Below, piece by piece: positions 45,650 through 48,646 of a stretch of DNA of 64,000 bases (the stretch's first letter is position 1; each line of letters starts with the position of its first letter). Source of the stretch: an uncultured Desulfomonile sp. (lineage in GTDB: Bacteria > Desulfobacterota > Desulfomonilia > Desulfomonilales > Desulfomonilaceae); assembly GCA_903952205.1 (NCBI GenBank), contig CAJBEZ010000095.1:1-64000 (forward strand), in the 5' to 3' direction. The notes below the pieces were generated by a model, which did not search any database, had not been told where the DNA came from, and worked only from the letters and a program-made list of their open reading frames with translations. The position numbers were made by a program, and so were the translations under genes.

Positions 45650-46069
45650 TTAGTCAATTTCCGTGCCGGTCGTAGTCATGGTAATTTTACCATGCTTAAC
45701 GCCTCGTGTGGAAATAAGGAGTTCACCTGTCTTTTTTACCTGTTCCGACTCACCCCTGAGAATCAGGACCTCAAGACAGTTGTGAGCGTCTAAGTGCACA
45801 TGAATTGCGGAAATTATTATGTTGTGGGTCTTGTGTTGGATTTCCGTCAGTTTCTGCGCCAGATCGCTCTGTTCATGATTGTAGACTACAGTCACAGTGC
45901 CCACCACTTCATGTCCCGGTTGGCTCCATTGATCCTCTACAAGTCGATCCCGAATTAAGTCTCGAATCGCTTCTGAACGATTCGTGTAACCTTTCTGGGC
46001 AATCAATTCATCAAAGTTTTCGAGCAAATCATCCGGTATTGAAACGCCAAATCTTACTAGCTCAGACAT
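45650..46069 (-). CDS. nikR: Nickel-responsive regulator NikR
   Basis: A 139-residue ribbon-helix-helix repressor with a C-terminal ACT domain. [36 protein letters not shown] is the DNA-binding part; the high-affinity nickel site is complete, with a His in IQHKTHN and the HVHLDAHNC segment (two His, one Cys). The start at 46069 follows AAGGGAAGTTGTC; an upstream extension of 32 codons is not conserved in kind. It should control nickel uptake, which fits a nickel CO dehydrogenase elsewhere. A consensus NikR half-site pair is not seen upstream. Confidence 0.94.
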
Positions 46070-46404
46070 GACAACTTCCCTTTTCTTGATTGTGTAGGAA
46101 TGACAGGTTGGATATTTCCAAATATCATCTGTACAAAAATTGACCCCAAAGGCGTATGGTTTCAATTATTCAAAATTCCGCCGCCCGGAGTTTCAATCGA
46201 TAATATATCGTAACAGAGAATGCAAAGGCCGGAAGCCTAAGAACTTTGTCCGGACGATGGAAATATATCATGATTGAAGGAATTTGCAAAAGGAGAAACC
46301 ACCACACAATGCGGCAAATCGACACGGACGGCGATTCAAGTCCCTAAACGTATGAAAAAAATCTAATTGCGGATAGATTCAATGATCAAGTCAAGTTAAG
46401 TTTC
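46070..46404. other. Intergenic region with two dyads upstream of nikR
   Basis: 335 bases without a gene. GATATTT/AAATATC at 46111-46126 is a perfect dyad 42 bases before nikR, and CGATA/TATCG at 46198-46210 is a second. They may be operators. Nothing else is seen. Confidence 0.5.
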
Positions 46405-46842
46405 CTAGTCTAATTTCAGATCAGAGGGTTCGATCCTGTTCTTTTCAATGTTGTCCACGATACACTTGGCCCAAGTATCGGTAACCGTATAGACCATTTC
46501 CAGCCCCTGCCGGTAAGATTGGATAATCCCCCTCGTCTTAAGGTGGATTAGATGCTGAGAAACTGTCGCTTGATGCAACCCCAAACATTCCTGCATGTTC
46601 TTAACGTTGCAGCCCCCGACTTTGAGAAGGCCATACACTATTTTTAGACGTATGGGGTGCCCTAAAGCCTTAAATATTTCAGCTTCCCGAGAAAATTCCT
46701 TTTTCTTTATCGCAACGAACAAATCTTCTTTGTTGAACTCTCCAGTCATATCGGCGCTAAGTTTATTTTCCCGGGATACGACGGATCCTTGAATTTCGTT
46801 TTGCATTACGTTTTTACCTGATTCTATTGTTGCTCGGCCCAT
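46405..46842 (-). CDS. ArsR family winged-helix regulator
   Basis: A 145-residue ArsR/SmtB-type repressor. IFKALGHPIRLKIVYGLLKVGGCNVKNMQECLGLHQATVSQHL is the winged helix-turn-helix, with Cys residues just before and inside the recognition helix (GGC and QEC), so it may sense a metal or a thiol-reactive compound. There is a long N-terminal extension of about 40 residues. The ATG at 46842 has GAGG nine bases before; a GTG five codons earlier and an ATG at 46806 are alternatives. It lies 140 bases downstream of a selenoprotein gene on the same strand, probably in one transcript. Confidence 0.88.
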   Translation of the reverse strand: MGRATIESGKNVMQNEIQGSVVSRENKLSADMTGEFNKEDLFVAIKKKEFSREAEIFKALGHPIRLKIVYGLLKVGGCNVKNMQECLGLHQATVSQHLIHLKTRGIIQSYRQGLEMVYTVTDTWAKCIVDNIEKNRIEPSDLKLD

Positions 46843-46982
46843 TGGAAATAACCTCACAGTGGTCTTAGTACTGTTTTTATTAATTTAGATATCTTGCACG
46901 TCACTGAGGCGTGTTTACAATATGTCGCCAAGACCTGACTGGGCTTAATTAAACTATTTTAGGTAAAAATCAGTTTCGAAAA

Positions 46983-47141
46983 TCATTTCCTTAAATCTTG
47001 GGTCTCTGAGGTCTTAGCTTTTCCCCTGTTCACGGGGGAACAACTTGGCGACATTCAGGTTGACACTCCCATCTTGGGCAAAAGCCAGCGGTTCAAAATA
47101 AACCATCCAACTACTACAGCTATTATCAGCGCCAATTCCAT
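46983..47141 (-). CDS. Small membrane-anchored selenoprotein (UxxxC, in-frame UGA)
   Basis: A 52-codon gene hidden by an in-frame TGA at codon 29 (47057-47055). From ATG 47141, behind AAGGA at seven bases, it reads a membrane helix (ELALIIAVVVGWFILNRW), then LLPKMGVST, Sec, MSPSC and a hydrophilic tail ending at TGA 46985-46983. The Sec and the Cys are four residues apart (UMSPSC), a thiol/selenol redox pair at the membrane surface. A SECIS-like hairpin lies directly after the UGA. If the TGA were a stop, the product would be a 28-residue helix, and the conserved-looking UxxxC tail would have no explanation. Selenocysteine insertion genes are not in the window. Function is unknown; a thioredoxin- or metalloid-linked redox role is inferred. 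Confidence 0.7.
47016..47045 (-). promoter_or_regulatory. SECIS-like hairpin for selenocysteine insertion
   Basis: On the minus strand AGTTGTTCCCC pairs with GGGGAAAAGCT around the eight-base loop CGTGAACA: ten pairs with one G-A mismatch. The stem begins nine bases after the UGA, the apical loop about 20 bases after it, and a G is the second loop base. These distances and the loop G match the known bacterial SECIS rules. Confidence 0.65.
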
Positions 47142-47242
47142 GCCTATGTCCTTTTTCCCCACGCCTAGGGATAGAAAACACCATGAAGGTGGTTTGAGAC
47201 TTATGTGGCGAGGCGTGAGGAGGCGAAAGTCTCATTTATTTA

Positions 47243-47302: not shown

Positions 47303-48646
47303 TCACAAAAATGAGGATCGCTCATCATCGCCAAATATCGAGACTCGTCCATATTCTCCGTCATACCCCGCCTCAATCTTCACCTGTCCGGCCCTTACCC
47401 TACGCAACGCTTCCACTACTATACCAGGAGAATAGACTTCCACATCATCGAGTGGCGCCGACCAAAGGATATCCAATTCAGGACCTAAAGCTTCAACAAG
47501 CTTATGATGCAGATGTTTTGCTTTTTTGGCCTGAACTCCACACCCCAGACAATCCGCCACTATCTCAATTAGTGGCAGCATTCTCCAATAGTACCCGGCT
47601 TTAGGGGGAGTATATCCCTCTGGTCGGTCTGCAAGTTGATTGACTCTGTTCATAACCCCTACTGTTACGGCGTGGCCACACACTGGGCATTTCCCCCCTA
47701 AGTCATCTGTTTCTTGAGGCTTGAGGCGCACCCCGCATTTTCGGTGCCCGTCCATGTGATATTTGCCCTCTTCCGGGAAAAACTCTATTGTCCCTACAAA
47801 GCTTGATGCGCCATCACGAACTCGCTTGTCTTCGAGTATCGATTGTTTCGGGCCGAGAAAATTCTCTGTGACCCTGGATCCTGTTCCACCTCGGTGTAAT
47901 GCTTCTCTAATAGCCTTGTACGAAGGATTTCCAGAAAAGATGTTGACCTCTCTACCAAGCTTGGACGGAGAATGCGTATCAGAATTTGAAACAAGAGTAT
48001 ATTGGTCAAGCTCAGATACCCTGAAGTTCATCTCCGGATCCGATGAAAGTCCTGTTTCCAGAGCCGGAATATAATCAGTAAGGTCTTCAAAACATTCCTC
48101 AATCGAATCAAACCCTGACCTGGAACCCAGAACAGAGAACCATGGGGTCCAAATATGAGCAGGAATCGCAAAAGACAGCGCCGAGGTTTCTAAAGCCATC
48201 TCCAGCAGATCGTGACAGTCGATACCTATTATTGGACGACCATCGGAATTTAGATTGCCTCTTTCACCAAGTCGCTTACAAAACTTGTCCATCGACTCCA
48301 TGTCAGGCATAAAGATCAGATTGTGAGCTTTCCTGACCTTTCCATTCTTCTTGTAAATAGAGCTGATTTCTACATTCAGAATAAAACGCACATCAGCAGG
48401 AGAGTTCCCTGGGGCATTTAAGAGAGGGTCCGGAGTGGCCCCCCTAACTAGGCCAAACAATCCTTCTTCACGTGGTTCCAACGACTCATGTATCAATCTT
48501 CGCCACTCTGGATGGGTAAAGTCTCCCGTGGCCACAACATGAATACCCTTCAGAGCGGCCCATTGGGATAGACCCCTAATGTCGCAGTCCTTTGAAGTGG
48601 CCCTCGAAAATCTTGAATGAACATGAAGATCGGCAAAATAAAGCAT
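47303..48646 (-). CDS. Endonuclease Q family (PHP-domain deaminated-base endonuclease)
   Basis: A 447-residue protein that opens with FADLHVHSRFSRATSKD, the EndoQ/PHP hallmark, and carries VVATGDFTHPEW, IPAHIWTPWFS and VSNSDTHSP metal-binding segments. A four-Cys zinc motif follows (CGVRLKP and CPVCGHAV) with a second Cys pair (CLGCG). EndoQ cuts DNA 5' to uracil, hypoxanthine, xanthine or abasic sites; it is best known from Thermococcales and occurs in scattered bacteria. Length and order of motifs fit. It faces the HU gene across a 440-base gap. Confidence 0.9.
   Translation of the reverse strand: MLYFADLHVHSRFSRATSKDCDIRGLSQWAALKGIHVVATGDFTHPEWRRLIHESLEPREEGLFGLVRGATPDPLLNAPGNSPADVRFILNVEISSIYKKNGKVRKAHNLIFMPDMESMDKFCKRLGERGNLNSDGRPIIGIDCHDLLEMALETSALSFAIPAHIWTPWFSVLGSRSGFDSIEECFEDLTDYIPALETGLSSDPEMNFRVSELDQYTLVSNSDTHSPSKLGREVNIFSGNPSYKAIREALHRGGTGSRVTENFLGPKQSILEDKRVRDGASSFVGTIEFFPEEGKYHMDGHRKCGVRLKPQETDDLGGKCPVCGHAVTVGVMNRVNQLADRPEGYTPPKAGYYWRMLPLIEIVADCLGCGVQAKKAKHLHHKLVEALGPELDILWSAPLDDVEVYSPGIVVEALRRVRAGQVKIEAGYDGEYGRVSIFGDDERSSFL

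Follow-up and report, generated by a model that had tools for sequence, protein, structure and literature searches.

An apparently undescribed family of small bacterial selenoproteins with a single predicted membrane helix

Does a short frame that carries an in-frame TGA encode a selenoprotein, and what might so small a membrane protein do? The question is raised by a locus on the minus strand of the window, the whole stretch of 64,000 nucleotides from an uncultured Desulfomonile sp. that was analysed here. A sequence-only reading of this DNA had proposed a hidden selenoprotein gene of 52 codons, broken only by a TGA at codon 29, with a good ribosome binding site, one membrane helix, a SECIS-like hairpin nine bases after the TGA and a redox site of U-x3-C spacing. 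The frame and the ribosome binding site are present as described (Table 1). The product is MELALIIAVVVGWFILNRWLLPKMGVST-U-MSPSCSPVNRGKAKTSETQDLRK, and its terminal stop is also TGA.

Table 1. Features of the selenoprotein locus, in window coordinates
Feature	Position	Strand	Basis
Gene of the selenoprotein (52 codons from ATG; internal TGA at codon 29 decoded as Sec, terminal stop TGA)	46983..47141	-	Frame; homologs with the same in-frame TGA
Sec codon TGA (U29)	47055..47057	-	Column holds TGA in 171/181 and TGY in 10/181
Cys34 codon, partner of Sec in U-x4-C	47040..47042	-	Cys at +5 in most Sec members
Single predicted transmembrane helix, residues 2-22	47076..47138	-	AlphaFold helix 2-23; hydrophobicity seen directly
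Shine-Dalgarno AAGGA, 7 nt before ATG	47149..47153	-	Sequence
bSECIS-like hairpin: outer stem 47045-47042/47019-47016, inner stem 47040-47035/47026-47021, loop 47034-47027	47016..47045	-	
Upstream PHP-like gene resembling TIGR00375, below model cut-off	47303..48646	-	
ArsR-family repressor, downstream, syntenic in home order	46405..46857	-	NF033788, E 9e-20
NikR, next gene downstream, syntenic in home order (true start probably near 46068)	45650..46165	-	NF003381, E 6e-66

The in-frame TGA as a selenocysteine codon

The protein recurs in three phyla. A stop-readthrough search finds it in 17 of the 18 genomes of the home order, each with exactly one internal stop, which is TGA. A 16-row profile extends the family to 172 of 395 home-phylum genomes, almost always with a single TGA at the Sec place, and a 29-row profile matches 57 of 247 genomes in the phylum of a Bryobacterales (Acidobacteria) MAG and 22 of 246 in the phylum of a Planctomycetales MAG, mostly with TGA. 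The profile does not pick up arbitrary membrane helices, since two profile searches in the phylum holding Cyanobacteriota and Chloroflexi MAGs returned only the two genomes on which they were centred. No family match was found in plasmid records. The recurrence of the same protein with TGA at the same place is far beyond chance.

Over the 181 members examined, TAA or TAG never occupies the Sec column, which holds TGA in all members except the ten with TGC or TGT (Table 1). A Cys-codon pattern scan places Cys versions in MAGs labelled Planctomycetales, Acidobacteriia, Bryobacterales, Deltaproteobacteria, Cyanobacteriota and Chloroflexi. The terminal stops of the 155 Sec members counted are TAG in 57, TGA in 52 and TAA in 45, and because TGA thus doubles as a normal terminal stop, an alternative genetic code is rejected. 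Insertion of Sec at the Cys codon of Cys-form members is likewise unsupported, since the two clear tRNA-Sec genes of those genomes have the anticodon UCA. In the home genus, purifying selection acts after the TGA, with a pN/pS of 0.16 before it and 0.39 over the 12 codons that follow, where the hairpin also constrains synonymous positions. A Shine-Dalgarno-like motif lies upstream in 140 of the 155 Sec members.

The genome of the window contains both SelB (398.6 bits, cut-off 242) and a tRNA-Sec (70.3 bits, anticodon UCA). The sequence-only reading had stated that its gene would be refuted by a lack of selB or selC, or of homologs carrying Cys or TGA at the Sec column, and all of these are found. 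A search of the same genome for SepSecS, which belongs to the archaeal and eukaryotic route, finds none, in keeping with a bacterial genome; the genes identified next to selB or tRNA-Sec do not include SelA or SelD. Since 351 of the 395 genomes of the home phylum have a tRNA-Sec, matching its presence or absence to that of the gene is a weak test. About 11 of the 172 gene-positive genomes lack a clear tRNA-Sec after cross-checking by hand; at laxer settings two of them barely pass, eight give weak matches only and one gives none. Gaps in incomplete, often fragmented assemblies probably account for this.

The published bacterial SECIS model has a loop of 3-9 nt with G in the first two loop positions, a stem of at least 4 bp and a distance of 16-37 nt from the TGA (PMC13188914). 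The hairpin seen by the sequence-only reading fits this model. It starts about 9-14 nt after the TGA, has an inner stem UUCCCC/GGGGAA and the loop CGUGAACA, lies with its loop 20 nt from the TGA and has a stability of -12.5 kcal/mol. Four of 100 synonymous recodings of the window gene are as stable as the real hairpin, so that this single gene provides modest evidence for a SECIS element. Each gene of the family was scored by its best hairpin meeting the model, and compared with 100 control sets in which the same residues are encoded by synonymous codons drawn from local codon usage. The mean best hairpin is -10.2 kcal/mol in the home phylum (116 genes) versus -3.5 in the recodings, -12.6 versus -6.6 in the acidobacterial set (39 genes) and -12.5 versus -7.5 in the planctomycete set (16 genes), and in none of the three phyla does any of the 100 control sets attain the mean of the real genes. 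A limit of -7.5 kcal/mol is reached by 81% of the genes versus 21% of the controls in the home phylum, 90% versus 45% in the acidobacterial set and 88% versus 50% in the planctomycete set. The loops mostly start with GG, AG or GT. This family-wide test is decisive. An Rfam scan of the window at gathering thresholds gives no SECIS family, a result that is uninformative for bacterial SECIS elements.

Three members with a Cys codon (L052:1442-1588, L055:2-106 and L057:4537-4626) retain a strong SECIS-like hairpin at SECIS spacing, and in all three none of 100 synonymous recodings is as stable. The genome of L055 also has a tRNA-Sec(UCA). These three genes may be recent conversions from Sec to Cys with a relic SECIS element.

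That the TGA is a Sec codon can be regarded as very secure. The sequence-only reading was right about the gene but underestimated the reach of the family.

Protein anatomy and comparison with known families

The family signature is LP[KR]xG[VI]x[TS]U-x4/5-C. In the window protein, the corresponding region LPKMGVSTU comes after the predicted helix. All 155 Sec members of the two phyla counted have Pro at -7 and Gly at -4 relative to Sec, an invariance that is partly due to selection since the member search used the Pro/Gly motif, and 143 have Thr at -1. The only departure in L165, the one member that this pattern did not admit, is a single additional residue before U. The partner Cys is at +5 in 128 of the 155 Sec members and at +6 in 16, while five have no downstream Cys at all. 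The window motif UMSPSC is U-x4-C, so the U-x3-C spacing of the sequence-only reading was wrong. L130, L154, L186 and L284 lack Cys at +5 or +6 and have it later or near the C-terminus, with Sec kept. Because five Sec members have no Cys, Sec is the conserved residue and Cys a usual but dispensable partner, and an intramolecular selenenylsulfide is not essential everywhere.

AlphaFold models of 61 members predict one helix, at residues 2-23, with a pLDDT of about 90 over residues 1-20 and a low-confidence tail. The protein is thus modelled as one hydrophobic helix followed by a short, mostly disordered tail, in agreement with the single membrane helix proposed earlier. Lys/Arg residues average 0.3 in the first six positions versus 4.9 in the tail; under the positive-inside rule this suggests that the tail, and the Sec at its root, would lie on the cytoplasmic side.

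The family has no counterpart in the collections searched. Pfam and NCBIfam (June 2026) scans of 1, 16 and 29 members give no model match, only chance-level matches to unrelated membrane segments, and a profile search of solved structures gives no match. No entry of the 119-entry family table of PMC13188914 (2026) fits the motif, earlier mention elsewhere being possible, nor does any in the passages compared from the table of PMC9312934. The small or operon-borne bacterial selenoproteins listed in these catalogues include TsoA/B/C/X/Y, SaoC, UXX-star, hypothetical DG/DW/DF, GOS_A/B/C and OS_HP3-5 (PMC13188914 Table 1; PMC9312934). Like the new family, they insert Sec by UGA and a downstream SECIS in the coding region, and several have no known function and are reported from sulfate-reducing bacteria. 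However, the NCBIfam models built for most of them match none of the 16 or 29 members scanned.

The Tso set has some resemblance in context, through the DsbD-like part of TsoB and through an ArsR/SmtB regulator among its members. Nevertheless, the neighbouring ArsR proteins score only 26.1 and 41.8 bits against TsoR (cut-off 115) and the neighbouring CcdA 49.7 bits against TsoB (cut-off 805); the Tso models do not match the selenoprotein, which was not found to belong to a Tso operon. GOS_A, a hypothetical family of 2 Sec and 155 Cys sequences (PMC2398784), has a Sec/Cys ratio the reverse of that of the new family; there being no GOS_A model or published motif, the ratio is the only point of comparison. 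Selenoproteins of the thioredoxin fold have a UxxC or CxxU motif, whereas here a single helix with a disordered tail is predicted and the spacing is U-x4/5-C. FmdB, a zinc ribbon that was once reported as a rare selenoprotein (PMC2398784), is the most frequent neighbour and always on the same strand, but it has no evident membrane helix and is not homologous. The YgaP-like TM/DUF2892 proteins (PF11127) are likewise small and located in the membrane, with a conserved Cys close to where the hydrophobic part ends (NWCP), but they are not homologous and PF11127 matches no family member. The eukaryotic single-pass proteins SELENOK and SELENOS have one membrane helix and a charged cytosolic tail that holds Sec, an architecture resembling that predicted for the new family. 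However, their Sec is near the far C-terminus, whereas in the new family Sec comes directly after the helix, the SECIS is bacterial and no solved structure matches. The window gene is apparently the founding example of a selenoprotein family not described so far.

Gene neighbourhood

In the window, the TIGR00375-like PHP gene, the selenoprotein, ArsR and NikR follow one another on the same strand, an order that is kept in the home order. Several relatives in that order have a TlpA-like gene between the TIGR00375-like gene and the selenoprotein. Neighbours lying up to 800 nt from the Sec codon were counted for all 181 loci and identified with NCBIfam and Pfam; for the planctomycete loci the flanks are 1.5 kb only, and several contigs end near the gene.

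The FmdB zinc ribbon (TIGR02605) lies within 800 nt in 43 loci, 30 of the home phylum and 13 acidobacterial, in every case on the same strand (L107:2211-2408, L241:2540-2749 and 41 other loci), and none is found elsewhere within 5 kb. FmdB and the selenoprotein are likely to form a physical or functional pair. Within the same distance there are ArsR genes in 24 loci, thioredoxin in 20, YgaP-like TM genes in 16 (14 of them acidobacterial), TlpA-like and CcdA/DsbD-TM genes in 8 each and DUF302 in 7, and except for CcdA nearly all are on the strand of the selenoprotein. In L107 the order is ArsR, selenoprotein, FmdB, thioredoxin and CcdA, while in L241 it is SufS, YgaP-like, selenoprotein, thioredoxin and FmdB, so that the same partners recur in two phyla in different orders. 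The selenoprotein genes cluster with thiol and sulfur redox genes. None of the six scored thiol/sulfur families is within 800 nt in 109 of the 181 loci; the locus of the window is among these 109, with only ArsR adjacent.

Several further features of the neighbourhood were observed. A Cys within a VKNxxxCL segment is conserved among the ArsR neighbours, including that of the window, and might serve to sense redox state or sulfur. In the home phylum, genes for 4Fe-4S dicluster proteins, for a b-type cytochrome-like protein or for c7-type triheme cytochromes precede the selenoprotein in L154, L160 and the L142/L148 group, and may belong to formate dehydrogenase or related respiratory operons. 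In L156, L168 and L174, a MobB-like gene (molybdopterin-guanine dinucleotide biosynthesis) lies upstream on the same strand.

Proposed role and alternatives

The most likely role is that of a membrane-tethered selenol on the cytoplasmic face, exchanging electrons or sulfur with thioredoxin-type partners. The helix would have its short N-terminus in the periplasm and the tail, rich in K/R, in the cytoplasm, which would place Sec at the inner membrane face, directly after the Pro/Gly turn. There the selenol could pair with the Cys at +5 or +6 as a selenenylsulfide, to be reduced by thioredoxin or a similar donor. Such a relay would link the thioredoxin pool of the cytoplasm to membrane partners of the CcdA/DsbD or YgaP type, moving electrons or sulfane sulfur between the two, and the adjacent ArsR-type repressor probably controls the selenoprotein by redox, sulfur or metal state. 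The conserved neighbours thioredoxin, CcdA/DsbD-TM, TlpA, FmdB and rhodanese/YgaP-like proteins support a redox role. That part of the sequence-only reading therefore holds as a proposal from context, while the spacing it gave does not and the partner Cys is not universal. The explanation as a whole, a real selenoprotein of about 52 residues that acts as a selenol relay at the membrane, is moderately probable, its biochemical part being drawn from the neighbourhood.

The main rival shares the chemistry of the selenol relay. The membrane-edge selenol might be a carrier of sulfane sulfur or selenium that takes persulfide sulfur or selenide from a rhodanese, a cysteine desulfurase or a YgaP-type protein and hands it on, thioredoxin only resetting the selenol. 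The stronger conservation of Sec than of its partner Cys would fit such a carrier, as would the 16 loci with YgaP-like TM genes and several upstream genes: SufS in L241, a CoA-disulfide reductase-rhodanese fusion in L229 and a metallo-beta-lactamase/rhodanese protein in L265. A protein similar to the last is found in L057, and a rhodanese in L264. However, the rhodanese and YgaP context, 14 of the 16 YgaP-like loci being acidobacterial, belongs mainly to the acidobacterial and planctomycete loci and hardly to the home phylum, where FmdB, thioredoxin, ArsR and CcdA dominate. A carrier function is a minority possibility and rather unlikely.

Protection against metals or metalloids is less probable still. 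Selenolates bind soft metals strongly, and a membrane-edge selenolate under ArsR-type control could capture Hg, As or Cd; the 24 loci with a nearby ArsR-family gene and the presence of NikR as the next gene in the home order are in keeping with this. However, the ArsR proteins score too low for each of the metal-specific NCBIfam models they hit, and the neighbourhoods show no recurrent metal exporter, reductase or methylase, which makes this function improbable. Finally, the TGA might be a true stop, as an ordinary gene caller would read it, leaving a membrane peptide of 28 residues (such peptides exist) and incidental sequence beyond, but this has almost no likelihood given the Cys at +5 or +6 after the TGA in 144 of 155 members, its replacement in homologs by Cys codons and never by TAA or TAG, the SECIS signal in three phyla and the selB and tRNA-Sec of the genome.

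The selenol relay, if right, has consequences beyond the window. A large share of the home phylum and subsets of two further phyla would depend on selenium for a membrane step of thiol or sulfane-sulfur transfer, by means of a single-helix selenoprotein of some 45-70 residues that has been missed because gene callers stop at UGA; we hold this broader statement to be evenly poised. The family would then be among the most widespread uncatalogued bacterial selenoprotein families, with 172 of the 395 home-phylum genomes sampled, and its architecture, a single membrane helix with Sec at the membrane edge, matches no catalogue entry found. It would change counts of selenium use and give annotation pipelines a simple signature to add. 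The FmdB, thioredoxin, CcdA and YgaP-like neighbours would raise the testable question of how selenium is used to move electrons or sulfur at the membrane, and the selenoprotein would offer a way into the function of the FmdB zinc ribbons, which are still little understood.
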